From assembly GCA_030446465.1 (NCBI GenBank), contig JAUJNI010000001.1:543859-607858 (forward strand): a DNA stretch of 64,000 nt, in the 5' to 3' direction. A program made the position numbers and the translations under genes. The notes beneath the pieces are model-generated. The model worked only from the letters and a program-made list of their open reading frames with translations. It had not been told where the DNA came from and ran no database searches. Source of the stretch: Actinomycetota bacterium (lineage in GTDB: Bacteria > Actinomycetota > CADDZG01 > WHSQ01). This document shows positions 4,298 to 30,068 of this stretch, in pieces (the stretch's first letter is position 1; every line of letters starts with the position of its first letter).

Positions 4298-5236
4298 ATG
4301 AGGATCGCAGCGGCGCAAGCTCACTCGGTATGGCTAGACCCCGCCGCGACTTCGAAGAAGGTCTTGTCGTTCTTGCAGGACGCGGCCGCCGAAGGGGTAG
4401 AGCTCCTGGCTTTCCCTGAGACCTTCTTGTCCGGATACCCGTTCTGGGTCGAGAAGACCGACGGGGCTCGTTTCAACGATGACCGCCAGAAGGCCGCCTA
4501 CGCCTATTACCTTGACGCAGCGGTCGAGATGGACGGGCCGGAGATCGGTGACATCACCGAAGCTGTAGCCGATCTCGGTGTCTTCACCTATCTCGGGATC
4601 ACCGAGCGAGGTAGCGGAGCAGCGCACGGGACCGTGTTCTGCACCCTCGTCGCCATAGATCCCAGGCACGGGATCCTTTCACGCCACCGAAAGCTGGTTC
4701 CGACCTACGAAGAAAGGCTGGTGTGGGGGCATGGTGATGGCTACGGACTCCGGGTCCACGACCTCCCAGGCGGAAAGGTCGGCGGGCTGAACTGCTGGGA
4801 GAACTGGATGCCACAGGCTCGTCACGCGCTCTACGCGGGCGGCGAGGACGTACACGTGAGCGTGTGGCCGGGCGCTACACGACTAACCCGTGACATCGCC
4901 AGATTCATCGCGCTGGAGGGCCGTGTTTATTCGCTTGCTGCGTGCGGCGTGCTGGCGCTCGAGGACGTCCCTACCGACTTCCCCCTTCGGGACCTACTGG
5001 AGGACCAAGACAACAACCTCTACTACAACGGCGGTTCGGCCATCGCGGCTCCGGACGGGACCTGGGTTGTGGAGCCGGTCGAGAACGAAGAACGGCTGAT
5101 CGTCGCCGATATCGATCTGGCTCTGGTTCGACGGGAGCGACAGAGCTTCGACCCCACCGGCCACTACAGTCGGCCGGACGTATTCGACGTTCGCGTCGAC
5201 CGTCGCCGCAGAGACGCGGCTGTCTTCACCGACTGA
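4298..5236 (+). CDS. Nitrilase / carbon-nitrogen hydrolase
   Basis: This 312-residue protein is a nitrilase-superfamily enzyme that would hydrolyse a C-N bond, most likely turning a nitrile into an acid plus ammonia. The catalytic triad is visible: Glu41 in AFPETFLSGYP, Lys132 in HRKLVPT and Cys166 in GGLNCWENWMP. The sequence YP after FLSG and the CWEN motif favour the true nitrilase/cyanide-hydratase branch over amidase branches, and the length is usual for it. It starts 20 bp after the selenoprotein gene on the same strand and is probably in the same operon. That pairing suggests a common small nitrogen-containing substrate or a detoxification role, but the sequence does not identify the substrate. 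Confidence 0.88.
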   Translation: MRIAAAQAHSVWLDPAATSKKVLSFLQDAAAEGVELLAFPETFLSGYPFWVEKTDGARFNDDRQKAAYAYYLDAAVEMDGPEIGDITEAVADLGVFTYLGITERGSGAAHGTVFCTLVAIDPRHGILSRHRKLVPTYEERLVWGHGDGYGLRVHDLPGGKVGGLNCWENWMPQARHALYAGGEDVHVSVWPGATRLTRDIARFIALEGRVYSLAACGVLALEDVPTDFPLRDLLEDQDNNLYYNGGSAIAAPDGTWVVEPVENEERLIVADIDLALVRRERQSFDPTGHYSRPDVFDVRVDRRRRDAAVFTD

Positions 5237-5343
5237 TAGCCGCCGTCTCTTATCGCGCTCATGACGCCCAAGCGCGCTATGGCAACTTTTGAGGCCAAAT
5301 GTCTGAGATTGGCACCACAACCGTGGGAACCGTAGCCAGAAAA

Positions 5344-5384
5344 GGGTCGCCGGGGAAACGAACCCTGAACCTACGGATTAAGAG
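5344..5384 (-). repeat. tRNA-Lys 3'-half fragment (att-like site, internal)
   Basis: About 41 bp match the 3' half of tRNA-Lys(CTT) at 41879, again ending at the anticodon loop, with a few mismatches in the T arm. Same orientation as the functional tRNA. It divides the island into a 3.7-kb left unit and a 36.5-kb right unit and is read as an internal attachment site. Confidence 0.75.
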
Positions 5385-5502
5385 CTGGGATGTTGTCAAC
5401 GCTTGTCAAGTTCTTGCGAGACCGTGCATGCTCCCAGGTCGGCGCCATGGTTGTAGTTCGCAAGACTTGCCCTCGTTTTTCATCGCTTTGCGTCGCTCGC
5501 GT

Positions 5503-5608
5503 GTCAAAATCGTGTCGCCGTCAGCAAGGCGTCGGCCGTCCCCGGGGCCGCCGGTTGAAGGAGGCGACTTCGGGGGCCGAGACCGTTGTGGGTCACGGGT
5601 CTCTTTGG
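5503..5608 (+). repeat. 106-bp segment, inverted copy at 39320-39427
   Basis: This stretch is the reverse complement of 39320-39427 with a handful of mismatches and indels, mostly at the outer end. It lies directly against the left edge of the 1.87-kb direct repeat in both places, but in opposite orientation. No gene is seen in it; it contains GGCGACTTCGG and GTGGGTCACGGG blocks. Its origin is unknown. Confidence 0.8.
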
Positions 5609-5774
5609 TGTCTTTCTTCTGCAGGATGGGTACGGCAGGATTCGCGATGGCGGTGAGCTCGCTGTCGGTCGTGCTGGACGCCAATGAGATGCGTAAATTT
5701 CCGCCCCGCGCGCTTAGTCGATGGAGGAAGACCCCTTCCCGCTACTTTTTAGTGTCCGTTACAGTGAAGTGGAT

Positions 5775-6038
5775 ATGAAGACGCTGCTGGTTCTAGGGCT
5801 TGTGTTGCTTCTGCTCGTGGTGGGGCTTCCCATCGCCATGGGCATGGGCGACATGGGACCGTGCCCTTCCTGTTCAGCGCCGGATGCCTCCGTCGCTGTG
5901 GCGATGTGCCTCGCGATCCTCGCGATCGGCGGGCTCTTCATGACGCCGGCGTTCTCGGGCCGAATCTCGCAGTGCAGCAAGCGCACCCCTCGTTTCCTCG
6001 CCGTCTCTGGCCTCGATAGACCTCCGCAGCACGCGTAG
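5775..6038 (+). CDS. Small membrane protein with CPSC motif (repeat copy 1)
   Basis: Starts at the ATG at 5775 (MKTLLVLGLVLLLLVVG). The protein has two hydrophobic segments, residues 2-22 and about 43-62, around a loop with GPCPSCSAP. The Cys pair could bind a soft metal or form a disulfide outside the membrane, but I do not recognise the family. In this copy an extra C in a run changes the last 20 or so residues compared with copy 2 (39590-39856), so at least one C-terminus is wrong. It leads a small operon with the 69-residue membrane protein and the BNR protein. In other actinobacteria such sets often lie near copper-handling genes; this is only a weak hint. Confidence 0.55.
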   Translation: MKTLLVLGLVLLLLVVGLPIAMGMGDMGPCPSCSAPDASVAVAMCLAILAIGGLFMTPAFSGRISQCSKRTPRFLAVSGLDRPPQHA

Positions 6039-6101
6039 CTGATCTTTGCGCGCCATGCGCGCGCTCTGTCCTCACTGCGTTCTCGATAGGAGGTCTTTCA
6101 A

Positions 6102-6311
6102 TTGGAATGGTTATTGGTCTATGTGCCGGCGATCGCCTGTGCGGCGATGATGCTGGTGATCTGTCTCCCCATGATGCGCAAGATGTCGGGTGGTCACGCA
6201 CAAGAAGGAGGGGCATCGAGCGACGAGGTCGCCGAGCTCCGCTACGAGGTGGCGCGCCTTCGCGCTGAGCGGGCACTGGCGTCCCAGCCCGACGAGGTGA
6301 CCCATGGCTAA
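6102..6311 (+). CDS. 69-residue membrane-anchored protein (repeat copy 1)
   Basis: Starts with TTG at 6102, set well after an AGGAGG box, and overlaps the ATG of the BNR-protein gene by 8 bases, so the two are translationally coupled. The N-terminal 25 residues form one membrane helix (LLVYVPAIACAAMMLVICLP) followed by a short charged helix (ELRYEVARLRAERAL) that may form a coiled coil. The layout resembles small SHOCT-like or cytochrome-oxidase-accessory proteins, but I cannot assign a function. It is identical in copy 2 at 39916-40125. Confidence 0.55.
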   Translation: MEWLLVYVPAIACAAMMLVICLPMMRKMSGGHAQEGGASSDEVAELRYEVARLRAERALASQPDEVTHG

Positions 6312-7259
6312 GACCTCAACCCGCACCCGGCCGACGCCGTCCAGCAAGAAGGCCGGATCGCACCAGAAGAGCAGGCGACCTACGCCCAAGCCGTGGTACC
6401 AGCGGGTCGGTTCGACGACGTGGATAGCCGTCGTCTTGGTTGCCGGGATCGCTCTCTTCGCCCTGCTCAGCAGAGGAAACGAGACACCGGAAGGGCGGTC
6501 CGCGGTGCCGGTGGTGGGAGCGGACCTCCACTCTCTCGTCGTCGACCCCAAGAATCCCTCGCGTCTTTTCATCGGGAGTCATCAGGGCGTCTCGGCGTCG
6601 ACCGACGGTGGTGAGACGTGGCAGGTGCTCGAGAGCCTCAACGGCGCGGATGCGATGGGTTGGGCTTTTACCGAGGAAGCGATCCTCGTTGGCGGCCACC
6701 CTGGTCTCTACGTCTCAACGGACGGCGGCACCAGCTTCGAGCAGCGTAAGAAAGGCCTTCCCAACACCGAGACGTCCACGCGTTGGGGGCCGGCGACGGA
6801 GTGATCTACGCCGCATCACCTGGTGCAGGGTTCATAGCATCGACCGACGGGGGCGAGACATGGACAGTTCGCAACGACCGGGTCGGACAAGGGTTCATGG
6901 GCAAGATCCTGGTCGACCCCGAAGACCCGGACCACGTCATAGCGCCGGACATGCGGGCCGGTGCGGCGGAAAGCACCGACGGCGGTAAGAGCTGGGGCGC
7001 GCTTGGCGGCGTCCAGGGGGCGATGTGGGTCTCGTGGGACCCGTCCGACACCGGCGACATCATCGTGACGGCGACGGGGTCTGCCGTTCGTTCCACCGAC
7101 GGCGGCAAGACGTGGGACCCAATCGAGATCCCCGATGGCGCCTCGATCGTTGAGTTCTCCCCGGACGACCCGAAGACGCTCTACGCCGCGGTCCACGAAG
7201 ACCCGGAGGCGCGGGTCTGGGTCAGCACCAATGACGGCCAAACGTGGGAGGAGCTGTGA
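6304..7259 (+). pseudogene. BNR-repeat (sortilin/exo-glycosidase-like) protein, frameshifted (copy 1)
   Basis: The gene encodes a basic N-terminus, one membrane helix (about residues 39-58) and a beta-propeller made of Asp-box repeats: SASTDGGETW, VSTDGGTSF, ASTDGGETW, STDGGKSW, RSTDGGKTW and VSTNDGQTW. This is the 'F510_1955-like glycosylhydrolase' or sortilin-like type, probably an anchored extracellular propeller. In this copy two extra bases near 6772 shift the frame after KKGLPNT; the rest reads on from about 6783. Copy 2 is intact here but broken elsewhere, so combining the copies gives one uninterrupted protein of about 318 residues. The function is unknown; catalytic residues of true sialidases are not seen. 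Confidence 0.7.
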
Positions 7260-13847: not shown

Positions 13848-14360
13848 CGCCGACGGGCAGTACTTCGTTCGGCGCATCCGTTGGTCGAGGCGTCGTGGCC
13901 GGTATTGCAGGGACCGCCGTGATGACCGCGTTCCAGAAGCTGATCGAGATGCCGATCACCGGCCGCGACCGCCGTGATGACCGCGTTCCAGAAGCTGATC
14001 GAGATGCCGATCACCGGCCGCGGCGAGAGCTTCGCCCCTGCGGATCTTGTCGAGCGAGTCCTGCCGATCGAGGCGAAGGATGAGCGCCAACGGCGGCAGT
14101 TGAACTGGGTCACGCACTTCGCTCTCGGAGCGATGTGGGGGAGTGCTTTCGCCATCGCAGATCGCGCCGGTCTTCGTGGTCAGAAGGCGGTCGCCACAGT
14201 TTTCGCGGTTGTCTACACCGGCGACGTCCTGCTGAACGCGGCGCTGGGACTATACGAGCCGACGAAGTGGTCCGCCGGTGAGCTTGCCGTCGATGTGGTC
14301 GACAAGCTCGTTCAGGCTGAGGCGACGGGGCTGATCTTTGAGCGCATGAAGGACATCTAG
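13844..14360 (+). pseudogene. Membrane protein broken by a 55-bp tandem duplication
   Basis: The ATG at 13844 overlaps the PKS stop and begins a protein with GRGVVAGIAGTAVMTAFQKL as first membrane helix. A 55-bp perfect duplication (13912-14021) then shifts the frame; removing one copy restores a single protein of about 153 residues with helices at FALGAMWGSAFAIADRAG and TVFAVVYTGDVLLNAALG. The second copy supplies a GTG-ATG at 13971-13974 from which the C-terminal 128 residues could still be made. The closest relative in the window is the protein at 30300-30752, which shares GRGxxAGxxGTAVMT and the layout. Function unknown. Confidence 0.75.
13912..14021 (+). repeat. 55-bp perfect tandem duplication
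   Basis: Two identical, head-to-tail 55-bp units, 13912-13966 and 13967-14021. 55 is not a multiple of three, so the duplication disrupts the reading frame of the gene that contains it. Perfect identity points to a very recent event or an assembly artefact. Confidence 0.95.
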
Positions 14361-14920
14361 CCGACTTCGTCCCGGCCGAGTTCGAAGAAGATCTCGTCGA
14401 CGAGCTCATAGACGCGGCGCGTCGCCATAGGAACGGCCGCAGCGACATCAGGGCTAAGACCTTGATGGAAGTCCTCACACGTAGCTGCTTGACATCCCAC
14501 GACCAGGACGTGCTCGGGTAGGACGTCTGCGGCTTGTGCGATGCGCAGGATCCGTGATGGCTCCGCGAGATGAAGGTCGGCGTACTGGCCCTGCCATTCC
14601 TCCATCGTCGGTTCCGTGACCTTAGGAATCTGCGGGATCAGGACGAAGACAGTTCCGGCCGGCGCGTTGCGCTCGATTGCGTCGACGACGATCAACCCGC
14701 AGTAGCCCTCCATCAGCTGCTGGACGATCCCGAGACCCCCGATGCCGGTTTCGATGAGGTCGACTCGGTCCGGCAGAGAGTCTTGCAGCTGGGCCGCGAC
14801 CGCGACACCGAATCCGTCGTCGCCGCGCAGCGGGTTTCCGACACACGCGACGAGGACGCGCCAGCGCCGATCAGGCCCCGTGGGAACAACCACAGCTGCC
14901 GCCGCCTGGCCCGCAGCCAC
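14357..14920 (-). CDS. [NiFe]-hydrogenase maturation endopeptidase (HyaD/HybD type)
   Basis: This 187-residue protein is the protease that clips the C-terminal tail of the hydrogenase large subunit after nickel insertion. It shows the family start VLVACVGNPLRGDDGFG, where the second Asp of DD takes the place of the first nickel ligand (Glu16 in E. coli HybD), then LIVVDAIERNAPAGTVF with the second ligand Asp, and a His in YADLHLAEPS that is the probable third. It is the last gene of the hydrogenase operon and overlaps the NifU-like gene. Its stop overlaps the end of the convergent membrane-protein gene by four bases. The large subunit's 20-residue tail after the last active-site motif is the expected substrate. 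Confidence 0.88.
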   Translation of the reverse strand: MAAGQAAAAVVVPTGPDRRWRVLVACVGNPLRGDDGFGVAVAAQLQDSLPDRVDLIETGIGGLGIVQQLMEGYCGLIVVDAIERNAPAGTVFVLIPQIPKVTEPTMEEWQGQYADLHLAEPSRILRIAQAADVLPEHVLVVGCQAATCEDFHQGLSPDVAAAVPMATRRVYELVDEIFFELGRDEVG

Positions 14921-15503
14921 CGTGGGATGGTTCTCCTCCGCTGCGGAAGCTCAGGGTGGGCGCCGGTATGACCACGGGTTGCGGTTTGGATGTTTGCGCT
15001 CCCTCATGTTCGGGCGATGACGACACGTTCATCCGAACGAACTCCGGCAACTCTCCGCGCAGCGCTTCCTCCACGAGGTCGCCCAGTCCCGCGGTCGAGC
15101 CGGAGCAACTCTCACACGCACCCAGCAGGCGGATGGTGATCACACCGCCCTCGGCCGTAACCACCTCGAGCCGGCCGCCGTGGCTCTCGACGTACGGACG
15201 GATCCCCTCGACCGCCGCCTCCGCACGTTCTCTCTCGTCCTCGATCTCTTGCGACCCGTACAGGTCGAACAGCAGCGCCATGTGCGCATCGGCTAGCGCC
15301 TCGTCCAGAAGCGAACGTTGCTCGAGGAAAGCCGCGACCCGCTGCAGGCCACCGCGATGAAGCACGTCGACGGCGCGCAACACCGCGATCACGCCGTCCT
15401 GCACGTTTTCGTCGGGGTGGTCCACGAACATCTGGATCAGATCGTCGAGTTGACGCAACGCTGCAGCGACCTCGGGAGGCAGCTCTGCCGGCGCCGACGT
15501 CAT
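14871..15503 (-). CDS. NifU C-terminal domain protein of the hydrogenase operon
   Basis: A 210-residue protein with an acidic helical N-terminal part (about 1-95) and a NifU-type Fe-S scaffold domain (about 95-165), recognised by VESHGGRLEVVTAEGGVITI and the CxxC in LLGACESCSGSTAGL. Such proteins carry or assemble Fe-S clusters and are often found beside actinobacterial hydrogenase genes, where they would serve the small subunit. The tail is Gly/Cys/His-rich (HGGCGPGGGSCGCSHG), an unusual extra metal-binding candidate. The ATG overlaps the stop of the upstream membrane-protein gene (ATGA), and its own end overlaps the protease gene. Confidence 0.82.
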   Translation of the reverse strand: MTSAPAELPPEVAAALRQLDDLIQMFVDHPDENVQDGVIAVLRAVDVLHRGGLQRVAAFLEQRSLLDEALADAHMALLFDLYGSQEIEDERERAEAAVEGIRPYVESHGGRLEVVTAEGGVITIRLLGACESCSGSTAGLGDLVEEALRGELPEFVRMNVSSSPEHEGAQTSKPQPVVIPAPTLSFRSGGEPSHGGCGPGGGSCGCSHGA

Positions 15504-16066
15504 GGCGACTCACCACTGCCGTGGGACCACCAGCCCCAGCCAACGGCGTCGAGTGGTTGCAGCCCGCGCGCCATCCCAGCTACTACTGCCGCTGTGAGCG
15601 AATAGATCTGAGTCCCGACGAGGAGCTGTAGCGGCCCAGACAGTCCGAGCGCGCCACCGAACGGCCCGGGCTCGGGAACGCCCGGGGGAGAGGTCCCGTT
15701 CAAGAGATCGAGGACGGGCAGCAGGATCCCGCCCGAGACGAACAGAACGAGGCCCCAGAGAACGCCCTTAGTGGCGGCGCCGCGGAAGGTGAATCGATCG
15801 CCGGGCGTGATCGGCCACAACAGGGCGAGTGGGAGCGGCAGGATGAATACGCCGATGACTACGAACATGGCATAGCCGACGCCAAAGATCGTGTCGTGAT
15901 CGCCCGATCCGATCGCTCCGAGCAGCCGCGGCAGGTCCAGGACGGTCAGTCCTACCGCTGCCGCCAACTGCAACGATGCCGTCAGGAGCACGGTACCGGT
16001 GAGTCCGCCGAGGAGCGTGAGCGGAAAAAGCGCCGGATGGGGTTTGTACAGCAGCGGAGAGTCCAC
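15500..16066 (-). CDS. Hydrogenase-operon multi-pass membrane protein
   Basis: A 188-residue integral membrane protein with about four to five helices (FPLTLLGGLTGTVLLTASLQ; GVGYAMFVVIGVFILPLPLALLWP; GVLWGLVLFVSGGILLPVLDLL; LQLLVGTQIYSLTAAVVAGMARG). The long open frame upstream is noise; the GTG at 16066 (VDSPLLYKPHPALF) follows an AGAAGG box and begins two bases after the stop of the protease-like gene. I do not recognise a family and see no heme-binding His pair like that of HyaC, so it is not the usual cytochrome b partner. Its position inside the operon suggests a link to membrane attachment or electron transfer. Confidence 0.65.
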   Translation of the reverse strand: MDSPLLYKPHPALFPLTLLGGLTGTVLLTASLQLAAAVGLTVLDLPRLLGAIGSGDHDTIFGVGYAMFVVIGVFILPLPLALLWPITPGDRFTFRGAATKGVLWGLVLFVSGGILLPVLDLLNGTSPPGVPEPGPFGGALGLSGPLQLLVGTQIYSLTAAVVAGMARGLQPLDAVGWGWWSHGSGESP

Positions 16067-16068
16067 GG

Positions 16069-16590
16069 CTACCTTCTCACCGAGGCCGGTGGTGCGACGC
16101 GCGCTATGGCCGATACCTCTTGGCGCACCAGGTCGACGACCTGCGGGACCAATGCTTGCACGTCCCGGGTGAGTCCATCGCCGACCGTGCCCCGATGCGG
16201 CTCGAGCTCGATCGCGATGACATCGTCGGGAAGGGCGCCGAAGTGGCGGCCGATCACGACGAGGTGGTCGAGATCGATCACGCCCGCTCCCGCCTCGTAC
16301 ATCCGCGCTTGGATCTCTTCGCTGTCCGCCAGGGTCGTTTCGCACGGGGACCGGTATAGCCGCCCAGGCTCGCGACCCCGCTCCGTGACGCCGATCAGGA
16401 TGACTCGCTCGTAGGGTGGATCCGCATCGGCGAGGTCCAGCGCCACGTGCAGCGCGCCGTAGCCGAGATCCTCGACGTCAACGCCCGGTGGCCACTCCAG
16501 CAGCGCGAGCGCATCGCTCACGACCAACCCGAACGAGCCGTCGCCGAACCACCGATAGCCGACCCCGCCGATGAGGACGCGCGAGGTCAT
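16069..16590 (-). CDS. Degenerate HyaD-like protein of the hydrogenase operon
   Basis: A 173-residue paralogue of the hydrogenase endopeptidase at 14357. The start GVGYRWFGDGSFGLVVSDAL aligns with the protease motif GxGNxLxxD(D/E)GxG, but the Asn is Tyr and the nickel-ligand position (Glu16 in HybD) is Gly. The second ligand region reads VILIGVTERGREPG, where the protease has VVDAI, so that Asp is lost too. The fold is probably kept, but nickel recognition and cleavage are unlikely. It may be an assembly factor or have lost function. It lies 43 bases downstream of the large-subunit gene and two bases before the next start. Confidence 0.75.
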   Translation of the reverse strand: MTSRVLIGGVGYRWFGDGSFGLVVSDALALLEWPPGVDVEDLGYGALHVALDLADADPPYERVILIGVTERGREPGRLYRSPCETTLADSEEIQARMYEAGAGVIDLDHLVVIGRHFGALPDDVIAIELEPHRGTVGDGLTRDVQALVPQVVDLVRQEVSAIARVAPPASVRR

Positions 16591-16633: not shown

Positions 16634-18508
16634 TCATGTAGCCCCGCATGCGCAGGTCGTAGCGTCGCGGATGATCATGTTGTCGCCGTTCGCGATGTGC
16701 ACGGTGCACGGCATGCACGGGTCGAACGACCGGATAGCGCGGAAGATGTCGATCCCGGTGAACTCCTTGTCCGAGTCGAACTCTTCGAGGATCGGCGTGT
16801 TCACAGCCGCTTCCTCATAGGGGCCAGGCTGTCCGAACGGATCGACAGGTGAAGCGTTGAAGGTAGACGGGGTCACGACCTGATAGTTGGTGAGGACTCC
16901 CTTGTCCATCGTGAGGTGGTGGGTGAGGAAACCGCGCCCCGCGCCCCAGAAACCCACCCCGACGCGCTCGTCACGCGGCACCCTGAACTCGGTCATCGTC
17001 GCAACCTTGTTCTCACCGTCGCCCATGAGCTCGAAGGCGATCTGCACGTTCTCATACGCGACCATGAGCGAGTAGACGACGTGATAGGCCCGAGCGAGGT
17101 TGCGTTCGAACGCGTTCCATGTCTCCGGGATCTGCCATTCCAGCTCCATCGCCGGCAGAGCTGGGGTCTGTGGTGTGTCGATCTTGACGCTGGTGCCGGT
17201 TGCCTGCAGGAAGCGCGTGTGCGGCATCTTCGCAGCGGCCGCGGTGGCCCACAAGCGAGCGTAGGCGCCTGCCTCCATGACCTGACGATCCCACCGCGGT
17301 GAGGTGCTCCAGGTGTAGCGATCCTTCCAACTGCGCTTGTCCGGGCGCGGCTTCGTCTCCTTGTTCCAGGGGTGGTTCGGAGAGAGCGGGTTGCCCGCGG
17401 GATCTGTCGGGTACGGCGTTCCTTCGTTCTCCCAGCCCTCGTAATAGGCGTGCTCGACGAACTCCTCCATCCCCATGTTGATGTGGTGCAGGTTCGTCGT
17501 CACGAGCTCGCCGTCCATGATCACGCCGGGAGTCGCCCACCGCTGATCACCCCACTCCGCGGCCCCCGCATAGGTGCCGTCATAGGCGAACGGGTCATCC
17601 CACATGCCGGTGTCAATCATGTTCTTCGGTCGCGTACCCACCTGCTTGTAAAGCGGGTCCGCGTCGTAGAAGAACTGAGTGATGTCGTCCCAGATGAACA
17701 CGCCTCTTTTTGCGTAATCGAGCGTCCGGATGATGCGTATCTCGGTCTCGTTGAGCACCTGCATCGACACCGTGGTCGACAGGCCGCCGGGAACCACGGT
17801 CTGCGGGTGTGGATACTTCCCGAAGAGGATCGAGTAAGCCTCCTTCGGTGCCCGGGTCATGTGGAGGCCTTCCAGGTACAGCTTGCCCGTCAGCGGGTTG
17901 AACGCCGTCATGAGCTCCGCCATCGTCGCGAAGCCGTGGATGTTGCCGTGGCGCGTCTCGGTCTTCTTCGCCCGTTCCCATAGAGACGGGTTCGTACGCT
18001 CGATGACGACCTGCGAGTAATCAGGCCCCGCCAGTAGATAGAGGTGGACGGGGTTGTCGATCTGGAAGTCGAGACCGAGCTGGATGTTGCGTAGGGCGAG
18101 CCCCATCGGCGGGACCCCGATCCCGAACGCCATCTCCATCGCCAGTGACGAGGCGACCGAATGAACTCCTCCGCACACTCCGCACACGCGACTGGAGATG
18201 AACATCGCATCGCGGGGATCGCGTCCCTTCAGGATCACCTCGTAGCCGCGGAACAGCGTGCCGATGGAGTGTGCCTCCAGCACCTTGCGCTGCTGCAGGT
18301 CGACGACCGTGTGGAAGGCCATGGCACCGGCAACCCTGGTGACCGGGTCGAGGTTGATGTCCTTGACGTGGCCGTTGCTCGCCAGGAGCTGTTCGATCTG
18401 CGACCGATCGACGTCCCGTGTCTGGTAGGCGTAGGGGATGCCGACGCCTTCCTTTAGTCGCGCGTTTCCTTGCGCGTCGAACTCAACGGGCAGGTTCTGA
18501 AAGCACAT
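16634..18508 (-). CDS. [NiFe]-hydrogenase large subunit
   Basis: Catalytic subunit (624 residues) that splits H2 at a Ni-Fe(CN)2CO site. The N-terminal motif RVCGVCGGVH holds Cys109 and Cys112; the C-terminal motif SFDPCMPCTVH holds Cys598 and Cys601, followed after His604 by a 20-residue tail that the HyaD-type protease would remove. The ligands are normal Cys, not selenocysteine. Length, the missing Tat signal on its partner and the NifU neighbour fit the aerobic, high-affinity uptake hydrogenases of soil actinobacteria (group 1 or 2), which oxidise trace H2 and feed the respiratory chain. I cannot fix the exact subgroup by eye. It lies six bases after the small-subunit gene. Confidence 0.93.
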   Translation of the reverse strand: MCFQNLPVEFDAQGNARLKEGVGIPYAYQTRDVDRSQIEQLLASNGHVKDINLDPVTRVAGAMAFHTVVDLQQRKVLEAHSIGTLFRGYEVILKGRDPRDAMFISSRVCGVCGGVHSVASSLAMEMAFGIGVPPMGLALRNIQLGLDFQIDNPVHLYLLAGPDYSQVVIERTNPSLWERAKKTETRHGNIHGFATMAELMTAFNPLTGKLYLEGLHMTRAPKEAYSILFGKYPHPQTVVPGGLSTTVSMQVLNETEIRIIRTLDYAKRGVFIWDDITQFFYDADPLYKQVGTRPKNMIDTGMWDDPFAYDGTYAGAAEWGDQRWATPGVIMDGELVTTNLHHINMGMEEFVEHAYYEGWENEGTPYPTDPAGNPLSPNHPWNKETKPRPDKRSWKDRYTWSTSPRWDRQVMEAGAYARLWATAAAAKMPHTRFLQATGTSVKIDTPQTPALPAMELEWQIPETWNAFERNLARAYHVVYSLMVAYENVQIAFELMGDGENKVATMTEFRVPRDERVGVGFWGAGRGFLTHHLTMDKGVLTNYQVVTPSTFNASPVDPFGQPGPYEEAAVNTPILEEFDSDKEFTGIDIFRAIRSFDPCMPCTVHIANGDNMIIRDATTCACGAT

Positions 18509-18514
18509 CGGTTT

Positions 18515-19972
18515 TCACTCCTGATCTCCCTGAAGGGGGGTCTCGAACCCGTCGGCTTGAGGCGACAGCCCCGGCCGTTGATAGGTGCCGCGCTTGCGAG
18601 CCTCGTCTGCTCTGCGATCCGGCAGCAGCTGCGCGTACTCCTTGCCGTAGGCCGCCTCGGGCGGCACCATGTAGCCGCTCGCGTACTTCTCTTCGTCTTT
18701 CTCGTGGCGCCCCGGAAGCTCCGAGCGGAAGTATTGGATCCGGGTGTAGAAGTACTCGAAAGTGCGGTGGGCGATGGTGACGTTGTCGTATTGAGGGGCC
18801 CAGCCGCTGGGGGTCGTGCTCCTCCAACGCGGCTCTCGGTTGCGCTCCAGCTGAGTGGTTCGACGGAGCGGCTTGGTCAGGGCGCCGTGGATGCGTGACA
18901 GGGCCGTCGCCGGTGTCGTTTGCGGCGGCCGCTTGTAGAACGGCGTGAACTTGTCGGGGAATCCCGGCGACATGCAGCCGATGCACGCACCGCCCGCGAC
19001 CATGCAACCCCCCTTGCCGTTGATGAATCCGCGTTCGGTGATGTGGCAGTTGACGACGGGTCCCCAGCACCCGATCTCCGCCAGGCACTCCTTCCCGCCG
19101 AACTCACGGGCGAAATTGCCCTCCTCGTACCAAGCGCCGCGCGGACAGTGCAGGTGGACGGTCTCGCCGAACTGCCACGCGGGACGCCCCAGCTCGTCGA
19201 ACTCAGGCACGGGGCCTTGGCCGTTCATGTACTTGAGCAGCATCGTCACGGCTTCGGTGAAGTCGTCCCCGATCGGGGGGCAACCAGGAACGTTTACGAC
19301 CGGCAGCCCCAAGGAGCTCCTGTAGTCCTTGCCCAGGAAGTCCATCATGCTCATGGCGCCGGTGGGGTTCCCCAGCGATGCCGGGATCCCGCCCCAGGTG
19401 GCGCATGTGCCGATAGCGATCGTTACGGCTGCTCCCGGCGCAAGCCGACGGACCCACTCCGGTGTTGAGCGACGCTGGCGCTGGTCGGCGGGTGCCCACG
19501 TCGGCAGCGATCCCTTCGCCGCCCATGGCTCCGCGCCCACGGTCAGGTGCTCGTCGGTGATCGAACCTTCGTAGACGAGGATGTACGGCGCGTCGAGCGC
19601 CCCGGCGTCCGCCTGCTCCAGCAGGAGCGTGAAGTGGTCGCCCGACTCCATCTGGAACTGGTAATGATGCAGGACCACGACGGGGACGCCCGGCAGCGCT
19701 CCCGTCAGCAGCTCCTCGATCGAGGGGTCCGTCGCGCCGAGCGTAGAAACCGTGCACCCGTCGCAACTCATCCCCGGCAGCCAGAACAGGTAGACCTTCT
19801 TCAATGGCCCAAGCGTGTCCCTGCGGCCCCCGCTCTCTAGGAGACGCTGCTGAAGCTCGGAATTGTGCGCACCGGCAACGTTTCCCACTTGATCAGGCAG
19901 TAGTCGGCTGACCTCCCCCTCGAGGGGGAGGTCCACCCGCGCCTTCATCGGCACCGAGATCATGTTCTCCAT
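18515..19972 (-). CDS. [NiFe]-hydrogenase small (Fe-S) subunit with C-terminal extension
   Basis: Electron-transfer subunit, 485 residues, with three Fe-S clusters. Proximal-cluster ligands appear as Cys70/Cys73 in PGMSCDGCTVST, then IGTCATWGGIP and VNVPGCPPIGD. Medial and distal ligands lie in HLHCPRGAWYEEGNFA, KECLAEIGCWGP and GGCMVAGGACIGCMSPGFPD. There is no twin-arginine signal, so the enzyme stays on the cytoplasmic side. Actinobacterial group 1h enzymes, as I recall, have CxxD at the proximal site; here it is CxxC, which argues for another subgroup. After the distal cluster there are about 140 extra residues, charged and Pro-rich, longer than usual for the family (about 330-370 total), possibly for contact with the small membrane proteins encoded just upstream. 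Confidence 0.9.
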   Translation of the reverse strand: MENMISVPMKARVDLPLEGEVSRLLPDQVGNVAGAHNSELQQRLLESGGRRDTLGPLKKVYLFWLPGMSCDGCTVSTLGATDPSIEELLTGALPGVPVVVLHHYQFQMESGDHFTLLLEQADAGALDAPYILVYEGSITDEHLTVGAEPWAAKGSLPTWAPADQRQRRSTPEWVRRLAPGAAVTIAIGTCATWGGIPASLGNPTGAMSMMDFLGKDYRSSLGLPVVNVPGCPPIGDDFTEAVTMLLKYMNGQGPVPEFDELGRPAWQFGETVHLHCPRGAWYEEGNFAREFGGKECLAEIGCWGPVVNCHITERGFINGKGGCMVAGGACIGCMSPGFPDKFTPFYKRPPQTTPATALSRIHGALTKPLRRTTQLERNREPRWRSTTPSGWAPQYDNVTIAHRTFEYFYTRIQYFRSELPGRHEKDEEKYASGYMVPPEAAYGKEYAQLLPDRRADEARKRGTYQRPGLSPQADGFETPLQGDQE

Positions 19973-19981
19973 CGAGCTCTT

Positions 19982-20242
19982 CTAACCCCGCTCTCGCTGT
20001 GACTGTCGTCCCGATGCCGCATTCAGTGCGTCGATCGTCTCCCGCATCGATGCCACCAGGACCGCACCTCTTGTCGGTAAATCTCGGGTCTGGTGCTGGA
20101 CGGCGCGCAGTCCGACGGTCGTCTTCTCGAACCAGTGCCGGATGCTCTGCAGTGACTTCAGGACGAGAAACAATCCGACGAGAAGGACGCCGAGCAGGGC
20201 CCACGCCGCGAGCACCGACAGGATCGTGAGAAGGGTTGTCAC
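19982..20242 (-). CDS. Small single-helix membrane protein D, hydrogenase operon
   Basis: 86 residues from the GTG at 20242, which overlaps the stop of the preceding gene (GTGA). One or two closely spaced hydrophobic segments (LLTILSVLAAWALLGVLLVG) are followed by a basic turn and an amphipathic helix (SLQSIRHWFEKTTVGLRAVQ). It is the fourth of four similar tiny genes and ends nine bases before the hydrogenase small-subunit gene. It has no Cys or heme motif. A role as membrane anchor or scaffold for the hydrogenase is inferred from position only. Confidence 0.65.
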   Translation of the reverse strand: MTTLLTILSVLAAWALLGVLLVGLFLVLKSLQSIRHWFEKTTVGLRAVQHQTRDLPTRGAVLVASMRETIDALNAASGRQSQRERG

Positions 20243-20532
20243 GAGAACCGCCCGCCGATCCCGGGCGACGACGAGCTGACTCTCGGACCCGCGGCAGCGG
20301 CACTGCGCGGCAGCCCTTGAACCGCCTGCGGCAGCTGGCGGGCGAGAAGCTCGAGCTCGGCAAACGCCTCGTCGTGAGCCAGGTTGTCCACGATGCCTCT
20401 TGCAGCGTCCCGCGACATCTGAGCGAGCCGACGCGCCTGCTTTAGTACGCGCAGCACGAGGAACACGAACTTCAAGAGCACAACCAGCAGGAGCCACGAC
20501 ACCACGAGGCCGATCCAGGCCAGACCCTCCAC
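20239..20532 (-). CDS. Small single-helix membrane protein C, hydrogenase operon
   Basis: 97 residues from the GTG at 20532, preceded by GGGAGAAG. A long N-terminal membrane helix (LAWIGLVVSWLLLVVLLKFVFLV) is followed by a strongly basic helix (LKQARRLAQMSRDAARG) and an Ala/Ser/Pro-rich tail. The upstream extension of the open frame is not preferred because it overlaps the neighbouring gene and lacks a ribosome site. The layout matches genes A, B and D, suggesting they arose by duplication. Unknown function; probable membrane anchor. Confidence 0.65.
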   Translation of the reverse strand: MEGLAWIGLVVSWLLLVVLLKFVFLVLRVLKQARRLAQMSRDAARGIVDNLAHDEAFAELELLARQLPQAVQGLPRSAAAAGPRVSSSSPGIGGRFS

Positions 20533-20542
20533 TGTCTTCTCC

Positions 20543-20767
20543 CTAGGTCTCGACCGGCGCGAGCTCGCCAGCGGCGGCGAGGGTCGCGTGTTGGATGCTC
20601 TGGATGCGGCCAGCGAACCGTGCGGCCCCCTCACTGGCGAGCTCGAGGGTCGATGACGTCTGCCTCAGGAACCGGCGGATCTGCATCACGAAGATCAAGA
20701 TGGCAACAAGAGCTGCCACGACGATCACCCCGAGTAGGGCTGCGGTCACCATGACCAACGTGATCAT
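20543..20767 (-). CDS. Small single-helix membrane protein B, hydrogenase operon
   Basis: 74 residues from the ATG at 20767, three bases after the stop of gene A. The N-terminal helix (VMVTAALLGVIVVAALVAILIF) is followed by QIRRFLRQTSSTLELASEG, an amphipathic helix, and a short tail. Same plan as the three neighbours. No cofactor motif is visible. Confidence 0.65.
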   Translation of the reverse strand: MITLVMVTAALLGVIVVAALVAILIFVMQIRRFLRQTSSTLELASEGAARFAGRIQSIQHATLAAAGELAPVET

Positions 20768-20769
20768 CT

Positions 20770-21111
20770 CTAGGAACTCTTGTCCTCGTCGTGCTCGGCG
20801 CGGCCCAGCCAGTCCTGCACCTTTTCTGCGGCGGCGCTCACCGAGCCAACGACGCCGGCCCCGATCCCGGCACGCTGGATCCCGCGAGCTGCATCTCGGA
20901 TAGCGACCAGGTCTCGGTTCGTCTGCTCCAGCGTCCAGAGTGCGACCGTGTTCTGGGCAACCTGCTTGGCAGCGGTATAGGTGCGAGCTGCGTGCCGGTC
21001 GATCCTTTGAAGGGTGGCGATGATCAGCCCGAATAGGACCGCGATCACAACGACGGCCACGGAGGCCACGGCCAGCGCAGCCGCCCAGAGGTCGTTGTTA
21101 CTCAAGTCCAC
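20770..21111 (-). CDS. Small single-helix membrane protein A, first gene of hydrogenase operon
   Basis: 113 residues from the GTG at 21111, six bases after an AGGAG box. The membrane helix covers about residues 8-30 (ALAVASVAVVVIAVLFGLII), followed by RIDRHAARTYTAAKQVAQNT, a second helix with AVRDAARGI-like Ala/Arg pattern and an acidic end. It opens the ten-gene hydrogenase operon; the promoter should lie in the 240 bp between it and the divergent DUF2231 gene. Four such proteins in a row, all directly before the small subunit, are unusual. Confidence 0.65.
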   Translation of the reverse strand: MDLSNNDLWAAALAVASVAVVVIAVLFGLIIATLQRIDRHAARTYTAAKQVAQNTVALWTLEQTNRDLVAIRDAARGIQRAGIGAGVVGSVSAAAEKVQDWLGRAEHDEDKSS

Positions 21112-21351: not shown

Positions 21352-21861
21352 ATGGAAAGCAGGGTCAAGTTCTTGGGCCACGCGTTGCACCAACAACTCA
21401 TACCGTTTCCGCTCGGTCTTCTCGTTACCGCCGTGCTTTTCGATGTGCTTTATCTGTTGACTGATAGCCGTGAACTGGCGACCGCCGCTTACTGGATGAT
21501 CGCTGCTGGTGTGGTCGCTGGCGTTGCGGCGGTCATTCCCGGCACGCTGGATTGGCTGGCGATCCCGCCCGACACTCGGGCGAAGTTCGTGGGTCTGGTC
21601 CACGGGTGGGGAAACATCTTGGTCCTGGTGTTGTTCGCTATCAGCTGGATGATTCGGCGCGGCGACGAAACCTCGCCTGAAGGTCTTGCCATTGCGCTCG
21701 CTGTAGCGGGGGCCACGGTGTCAGGACTCACAGCCTGGTTGGGCGGCGAGCTGATCGATCGTCTGGGCGTGGGAATCGACAATGGCGCCCACCTGGATTC
21801 CCCTAACTCGTTATCGGGTCGTCCTGCCGCGGAAGGCGCCAGCCACAGCCGGACCACATGA
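21352..21861 (+). CDS. DUF2231-family membrane protein
   Basis: A 169-residue membrane protein with four helices and the DUF2231 landmarks: HALHQQLIPFPLGLLVTAVLFDV at the start, IPGTLDWLAIPPDTRAK in the first loop, LVHGWGNILVLVLFAISW and WLGGELIDRLGVGI near the end. The conserved His in the first and third helices have led others to suggest heme or metal binding, but the role is not established. It is divergent from the hydrogenase operon and may share its control region. Confidence 0.78.
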   Translation: MESRVKFLGHALHQQLIPFPLGLLVTAVLFDVLYLLTDSRELATAAYWMIAAGVVAGVAAVIPGTLDWLAIPPDTRAKFVGLVHGWGNILVLVLFAISWMIRRGDETSPEGLAIALAVAGATVSGLTAWLGGELIDRLGVGIDNGAHLDSPNSLSGRPAAEGASHSRTT

Positions 21862-28329: not shown

Positions 28330-29094
28330 CTAGCTCGACCCCCGTCGGCCCCGCGATCTCAACAGCTGTCGGGTCCGCAACGCGTCCCACGGGCCACCAG
28401 CTTGACGGGAGGGTTCAGGCTCGAGGGGTGAGTCCCCCGTCAGGCGCGCAACTCCTGGTTCGTCGAGGATCTCGACCTGGCCGTAGCCGATAGCGACGAC
28501 GCCGAGTCGCTCGAACTCCTTGAGAACCTGGTTCACCGGCGCGCGGCTCGCTCCCAGCATCGCCGCGCAGGTGTCCTGCGAGAAAGCGAAAACGCCGTCG
28601 CGGCTTTCGTGGAGGAGGAGCCTCGCGACCTGCTCCCTAAGGCTGCTCCCCAACATCTCAACGATGCGTCCCTGTACGCGAGCCACCCGACCTGCAAGCT
28701 TTCCGGCCCAACGAAGGAGAAACTTCGGGTTTCCTGCAATGACGCGAGCGAAGTCTGGCGCTGCCATGAAGAGGCACGAACCTTCCGTCACCGCCTTTGC
28801 TGTGTACGGTGCAGGCTCTTCCAGCATCAACGGGATCTCCCCGAAGCATTGGAGGGGGCCCAATAGCTCTATGACTCCAGCGGCCGGCGTGGCGCCGGCC
28901 AGGAGCTCGACCCACCCGTTCTTGATGATCCAGACGCCGTCGGGTACCGAACCGCGGTCGAAGAGGACTTCCCCAGGGTTGAAGCTACAGTCCTGCAGCA
29001 TCGGAGCGAGTGCTTCGACTTCAGCCGGCGAGAACAAGGCAGCTTCGGACCTGCCGAGGTGTTTTGCAACCCATCTAGCGTCTTCGTAGGTCAC
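28330..29094 (-). CDS. CRP/FNR-family transcription regulator
   Basis: 254 residues: a cyclic-nucleotide-binding-type beta barrel (about 30-125; PGEVLFDRGSVPDGVWIIKN, CFGEIPLMLEEPAPYTAKAV), a long dimer helix, and a C-terminal winged helix (FSQDTCAAMLGASRAPVNQV, then VLKEFERLGVVAIGYGQVEI). It lacks the N-terminal Cys set of FNR, so an Fe-S oxygen sensor is unlikely. The first residues WVAKHLGRSE match the second CRP-like protein encoded divergently at 29382, so the two are paralogues separated by a shared control region of about 290 bp. Confidence 0.85.
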   Translation of the reverse strand: MTYEDARWVAKHLGRSEAALFSPAEVEALAPMLQDCSFNPGEVLFDRGSVPDGVWIIKNGWVELLAGATPAAGVIELLGPLQCFGEIPLMLEEPAPYTAKAVTEGSCLFMAAPDFARVIAGNPKFLLRWAGKLAGRVARVQGRIVEMLGSSLREQVARLLLHESRDGVFAFSQDTCAAMLGASRAPVNQVLKEFERLGVVAIGYGQVEILDEPGVARLTGDSPLEPEPSRQAGGPWDALRTRQLLRSRGRRGSS

Positions 29095-29381: not shown

Positions 29382-30068
29382 ATCGATGCGAACCGCGATG
29401 CGGGTTGGCTCGCTCGCCACTTAGGACGAAGCGAGGATCCACCGTTCAAGCGCGACGAACTGGCCGCGATGGACGAGGTCGTTGAAGAACGGGAGCTCGA
29501 ACAGGGAACCGTGCTTTTCCGGTTGGGTACGCGCCCTCGCGGCGTCTGGCTGATCGTGAGCGGATGGGTCGAACTGGTCGCGGCATCGATGGGGCGCAAG
29601 GAGATAATCGCTACGATTGGGTCCGAGCAGTGCGTCGGCGACGGGATCCTGCTTCAGCGCAGCGTCGCCCCCTACACCGCCACTGTCCTGATGCCAGGCT
29701 CGGCAGGATTCATAAGTGCGGCACGGTTCACGCGATTGATCGCGGATGACGCTGAGATCGCGCGTCGATGGGCGGCGAAGCTTGCAGCGGCGACGGCGCG
29801 AGCCCAAGGCCGAGTCGTGGAGCTTCTGGGCGAAAACCTCCAGCAACAGGTCGCGAGGGTCCTTCTGCACGAGGGTTTCAACGGAACCTTTCCCTTCCCG
29901 CAAGACGTCTGTGCAGGACTCCTCGGTGCGAGTCGGCCTGCCGTGAATCAGGTCCTCAAGGACCTCGAGGCGCGGTCTCTGATCCGGCTGTCCTATGGCC
30001 GGATCGAGGTTCTCGAGAAGGCGCGCGTCGTGCAGCTCGCTCAAAGCGTCAGGTCCGGAACGCATTGA
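29382..30068 (+). CDS. CRP/FNR-family regulator, apparent ATC start
   Basis: A CRP-type regulator with sensor barrel (ELEQGTVLFRLGTRPRGVWL, CVGDGILLQRSVAPYTATVL), dimer helix and winged helix (FPFPQDVCAGLLGASRPAVN, then QVLKDLEARSLIRLSYGRIE). The first ATG in frame (29469) would cut away the start of the barrel. The frame is open back to 29364, and the stretch DAGWLARHLGRSED matches the N-terminus of the paralogue at 29094. Six bases after a strong GAAGGGAG box the frame has ATC at 29382, which either is a rare non-AUG start or hides a miscalled ATG. No FNR-type Cys cluster is present. Confidence 0.78.
   Translation: MDANRDAGWLARHLGRSEDPPFKRDELAAMDEVVEERELEQGTVLFRLGTRPRGVWLIVSGWVELVAASMGRKEIIATIGSEQCVGDGILLQRSVAPYTATVLMPGSAGFISAARFTRLIADDAEIARRWAAKLAAATARAQGRVVELLGENLQQQVARVLLHEGFNGTFPFPQDVCAGLLGASRPAVNQVLKDLEARSLIRLSYGRIEVLEKARVVQLAQSVRSGTH

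Follow-up and report, generated by a model that had tools for sequence, protein, structure and literature searches.

The window analysed here, 64,000 nt of an Actinomycetota genome, contains a [NiFe]-hydrogenase operon of ten minus-strand genes (Table 1). At its head lie four genes for mini-proteins, A to D, which directly precede the gene for the small subunit, S, as an earlier note on this DNA had described; the D-S gap is 9 nt. The note had further described the four genes as coupled by overlaps; the spacing is indeed tight (2 nt between A and B, 10 nt between B and C, and 6 nt between S and the large-subunit gene, L), although an overlap, of 4 nt, exists for C and D only. The DUF6789 multi-span protein of the operon ends in GWGWWSHGSGESP. 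Two CRP-family regulators are encoded a few kb upstream of the operon, at 28330-29094 (-) and 29469-30068 (+).

Table 1. Genes of the hydrogenase operon, by position in the window; loci are those of the hydrogenase clade described in the text.
Feature	Position	Strand	Description
Protein A	20770..21111	-	113 aa, one N-terminal TM helix; HylTM1/2 type (hhalign: TM2 E 3.5e-24, TM1 7.7e-21)
Protein B	20543..20767	-	74 aa, one N-terminal TM helix; TM5 type (hhalign E 9e-16); paralogue of D
Protein C	20239..20532	-	97 aa, one N-terminal TM helix; TM4 type (hhalign E 6e-15); paralogue of A
Protein D	19982..20242	-	86 aa, one N-terminal TM helix; TM3 type (hhalign E 7e-20)
[NiFe]-hydrogenase small subunit S	18515..19972	-	485 aa, long C-terminal tail, Tat-less
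[NiFe]-hydrogenase large subunit L	16634..18508	-	624 aa; closest solved structure HofG (5aa5)
Maturation-protease-like protein, HycI family	16069..16590	-	just under Pfam cut-off; matched at 62/80 loci
DUF6789 multi-span membrane protein	15500..16072	-	Pfam; 6/80 loci: window's own subclade and one relative
NifU-domain Fe-S protein	14871..15503	-	HucE/HhyE-like candidate electron carrier or assembly factor; 38/80 loci
Hydrogenase maturation protease HycI	14357..14920	-	Pfam

The four mini-proteins had been said to share one plan, consisting of an N-terminal membrane helix, a basic turn and an amphipathic helix. The first two elements are found in all of them: each has one strong hydrophobic segment that starts at residue 9-13 (mean hydropathy 2.8-3.2), preceded by no K or R and followed directly by basic residues. 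The same positive-inside pattern runs through the families (0.1-0.3 K/R before the TM segment versus 2-3 after), and is consistent with an N-out/C-in orientation and cytoplasmic tails. The amphipathic tail, in contrast, is measurable for the B and D types only (mean moment z of 1.3 and 1.8, as against -0.1 for the A type and 0.4 for the C type), and the D family carries the motif LxKIxxGVRAIExQT. Ka/Ks values against orthologues, about 0.1-0.4 in most comparisons and loosest for B (about 0.8 with the locus L055), indicate that the four genes are under purifying selection. Pfam and NCBIfam scans of A to D gave no family over the cut-off. The best PDB profile matches of D and B are designed alpha-helical bundles or barrels (8qae, 8a3k), which the A and C profiles did not match; a heptad pattern suited to such assemblies may be all that these matches reflect, and they are not evidence of homology. 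Redox-active mini-proteins carrying haem or Fe-S clusters are disfavoured, as Cys is nearly absent from the families and no His is conserved across them.

The enzyme encoded behind the mini-proteins agrees with the outline given in the earlier note. S has neither a Tat motif nor a TM segment, and the Pfam small-subunit C-terminal domain stops at residue 346 of 485, leaving 139 further residues, so that the extra C-terminus of about 140 residues had been read correctly. A classic cytochrome b partner is likewise absent from the ten operon genes as searched with Pfam, their sole multi-span protein being the DUF6789 protein. S retains 12 conserved Cys together with Asp71, and its closest solved structure is HofK (5aa5, group 1h), with an alignment that reaches residue 388. 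L is about 39% identical to plasmid-borne group 1h large subunits, and a plasmid search found no close relatives. Although HofKG is the nearest structural relative of both subunits, the group 1h enzymes have a shorter small-subunit tail and form a separate branch: in a quick small-subunit tree of 85 rows, a branch with 100% SH-aLRT support divides the 10 group 1h rows from the 75 that belong to the window's clade. The clade extends over Actinomycetota, Acidobacteriota, Chloroflexota, Thermomicrobiota, Armatimonadota and Gemmatimonadota as well as a Sphingomicrobium. The window's own genome has a second member (L032, at G000:C4:739000-751000), with 60% identity in S, the look of group 1m and three divergent mini-proteins. 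Separately, in a genome assigned to another genus (G005, contig C14, loci L033/L052), S and the DNA around it recur with 100% identity, through either a recent transfer or a mixed assembly; this genome further holds a copy at 94-95% and a hydrogenase locus that is broken (L051).

Short membrane proteins beside hydrogenases of this kind have been described before. According to PMC9561532, which cites an earlier study, the subunit genes of group 1l clusters are separated by those for five short proteins with predicted TM helices, HylTM1-5, and the general phenomenon is therefore known. No such five genes lie between S and L in the window's operon, but they do so at other loci of the clade (L089, L107, L112, L115, L117, L122, L124, L127), and these S-five-L loci fit group 1l, a group that HydDB is unable to tell from 1h (PMC11519504). 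When A to D are compared by profile with the five positions of these loci, A corresponds to TM2/TM1, B to TM5, C to TM4 and D to TM3. All five positions are thus matched, and the four-gene set looks like the five-gene set with types 1 and 2 as one protein. A to D have the single N-terminal TM helix, the basic turn, the tail and the homology to proteins at the TM1-5 positions that mark the HylTM family, and, like HylTM1-5, they are short, cross the membrane once and are encoded with a high-affinity hydrogenase related to group 1h. They differ in being four rather than five, in standing upstream of S in the order 1/2-5-4-3, and in leaving S and L adjacent. By arrangement and by their homologues at the TM1-5 positions, A to D would accordingly appear as a four-gene version of the HylTM set of group 1l-related hydrogenases. 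Within the set, profile comparison joins A to C (E 4e-18) and B to D (E 5e-21), with a weaker match between A and D (E 1.5e-7); on this profile evidence A/C and B/D are paralogous pairs, which are newly found here.

Group 1m offers a second point of comparison, since its subunit genes are adjacent, as in the window, and its clusters include two small single-TM proteins (PMC9561532). Many Actinomycetota loci of the clade have three divergent mini-protein genes upstream and, where visible, two downstream, and these loci fit group 1m; several of them thus have five mini-proteins, as against the published two. Neighbours of 1m type, recognised by eye and without Pfam, include a TPR-like protein and CooC-like genes at L036 and a DUF1059-like ORF at L106, whereas Pfam finds no TPR, CooC-type, BirA or DUF1059 gene among the ten operon genes of the window. 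The window's ABCD-S-L arrangement matches neither the 1l nor the 1m description.

The association of the mini-proteins with this hydrogenase clade is strong. HMMs built from 29 four-gene sets, and extended with group-1m-like and five-gene sets, detect 3-9 mini-protein genes at 78 of 81 clade loci from at least six phyla. The earlier note had held that operons of this hydrogenase type lacking the genes in close relatives would count against its proposal; only three clade loci without the genes were seen (L073, L128, L130), and each is explained by a contig that ends at or near the S gene. The same HMMs find mini-proteins at none of 10 group 1h control loci, and no further matches in the rest of the 64-kb window. 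Furthermore, a strong D match (E<1e-20) occurs in 18 of 296 Actinomycetota genomes, each of which carries a clade hydrogenase, nearly always adjoining the match. Gene order is far less constant: the order ABCD-S-L is found in the window, in Pseudonocardia nigra (L063), in a Chloroflexota locus (L060) and in Acidobacteriota (L062-L074), and the order S-ABCD-L at L076, L077, L080, L083, L090, L110 and L113. That the set persists while its arrangement varies suggests that it is retained by function and not by position alone.

Some loci depart from the simple set. Duplicated sets of 8-9 genes stand at single hydrogenase clusters (L092:4313-6482, L084:1218-2341, L125), and a few of the mini-protein genes detected at the clade loci are near-copies of each other. 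Longer one-helix coiled-coil proteins of about 200-300 aa, with repeated INxxAxxI-like segments, are encoded beside some short sets (L142:6355-8283, L150:2956-4868, L123:1911-4563, L075:13855-15368).

Wide occurrence of the four genes apart from hydrogenase had also been named as an outcome that would speak against the proposal. For strong D matches nothing of the kind was seen; however, matching five-protein sets do adjoin CO dehydrogenase (CODH) genes in genomes that have no clade hydrogenase. Of the 296 Actinomycetota genomes, 14 have weaker D matches but no clade hydrogenase, and ten of these (G016, G021, G087, G115, G156, G166, G213, G229, G261, G263) have the set on a contig with CODH genes, CoxG being the only such gene on that contig in G021. 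Five-protein loci on the CODH side include L142, L145, L146, L147 (set at 5041-6459), L148, L150, L151, L152 and L153. CoxL has the form I motif AYRCSFR at seven fetched loci, and CoxL and CoxG are Pfam-confirmed where tested. At each of eight fetched CODH loci, HMMs for the five types of the group-1m-like hydrogenase loci single out five distinct proteins, generally one protein for each type, except that one protein at L147 scores slightly better to a neighbouring type. The CODH-side members have weak Pfam similarity to DUF948 and ATP synthase b. About 33 of 45 CoxL genomes have no adjoining set, so that the set is not obligatory for CODH, although the number of CODH loci with a set may be undercounted because the D profile derives from hydrogenase loci.

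The other four of the 14 genomes belong to one genus, g15 (G017, G018, G020, G022), in which the sets (L143:7423-11165, L144:6953-7857, L149:7844-8737) lie near DUF255-like and penicillin-acylase-like genes and away from CoxL; in G020, CoxL is about 15 kb from one half of the set. No published report of a link between the mini-proteins and CODH was found in the literature searched, which excludes most subscription papers. The CODH-side sets are new here, and their presence suggests that gas-consuming enzymes share a device by which they are tied to the membrane.

From the genes, their topology signature, homology, paralogy and genetic association, we infer a bundle, its docking to the enzyme and a path for quinone, and consider it probable that A to D are a HylTM module forming a hetero-oligomeric membrane anchor, most likely with quinone access for the hydrogenase. 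Each mini-protein would span the membrane once, N-out/C-in, and on the cytoplasmic side the helices of paralogues (A and C, B and D) would come together as a hetero-oligomeric coiled coil without redox ligands. Such a bundle would hold the signal-less cytoplasmic hydrogenase against the inner surface of the membrane, and would most likely let menaquinone reach the distal Fe-S cluster of S. The position of the genes, either between S and L or immediately ahead of S, speaks for a role as structural subunits. A conserved multi-span partner was not seen: as candidates for a general membrane partner, the DUF6789 protein, with matches at 6 of 80 loci, and a DUF2231 protein (21352-21861), with a match at 1 of 80, were both rejected.

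The observation in the earlier note is confirmed, and the membrane stalk that it proposed, linking a cytoplasmic hydrogenase to the quinone pool, is partly supported. The note had likened this arrangement to that of HucM in Huc, a group 2a hydrogenase in which HucM makes up a helical tube that carries menaquinone (PMC10017518), while expecting different proteins. This expectation is borne out: the comparator, encoded where HucM would be expected in a group 2a-like locus (L132:4725-5288), reaches an hhalign probability of only 0.2 against the D and A profiles, and homology to HucM is rejected, there being no detectable sequence relation. The likeness is one of role: HucM is a helical, membrane-linked stalk that delivers menaquinone to a hydrogenase lacking a membrane subunit (PMC10017518), and A to D would fill this part with other proteins. 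In build they differ, HucM being a single protein of about 189 aa that forms a tetramer, attaches peripherally and has no N-terminal TM helix, whereas A to D each have one. A partner of this kind would also be in keeping with the anchorless group 1h enzyme, which is membrane-associated via an unknown partner, an association that matters for its affinity (PMC7174314).

We regard it as unlikely, though worth weighing, that the mini-proteins are purely an anchor or an oligomerisation scaffold, with electrons leaving via the NifU-domain Fe-S protein, as proposed for HucE/HhyE, and quinone not passing through the bundle. The presence of the NifU-type gene in the operon and at other clade loci (Table 1) agrees with such an exit, as does the requirement for HucE/HhyE in mycobacterial H2 oxidation (PMC6883350); yet this gene is rarer than the mini-proteins, even if some loci are truncated, and a simple anchor hardly accounts for four to five different paralogues. 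A role as assembly or maturation factors, keeping the apo-enzyme membrane-bound while its cofactors are inserted rather than serving as subunits of the working enzyme, appears less probable still. Group 1m-type loci do put part of the set with maturation genes (NifU, HycI, TPR), and CODH-side sets are also near CoxG, MoxR and CoxE genes, but NiFe and Mo-Cu cofactor assembly have no common steps, which makes a shared factor unlikely, and the position of the genes relative to S and L again points to structural subunits. That the mini-proteins serve some unrelated purpose, as generic coiled-coil membrane proteins of one helix that are neighbours by chance, is very improbable: the weak DUF948 and ATP synthase b similarity and the unrelated neighbours in the four g15 genomes would agree with it, but the tie of strong D matches to the clade hydrogenase, the spread over phyla and the empty group 1h loci do not.

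If A to D are such an anchor with quinone access, a relative of the module would serve some form I CO dehydrogenases alongside CoxG, which is described as quinone-binding (PMC13240472). CoxG, too, connects quinone with a trace-gas enzyme of the cytoplasm (PMC13240472), and is encoded beside relatives of A to D in several genomes; it is an SRPBCC-type protein (Pfam COXG), of a fold unrelated to theirs. We put forward tentatively, as something that could well prove wrong, that one family of four to five paralogues is a modular quinone-access stalk, exchangeable between [NiFe]-hydrogenase and Mo-Cu CO dehydrogenase, two unrelated cytoplasmic oxidisers of trace gases that it would join to the respiratory membrane.

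Hydrogenases of groups 1h, 1l and 1m account for much of the atmospheric H2 uptake in desert soils. Across the clade studied here the mini-protein set is the only membrane component that is kept, and its recurrence beside CODH genes, a link that is new and potentially important, makes it a concrete and testable candidate for electron transfer to the membrane in both enzymes.
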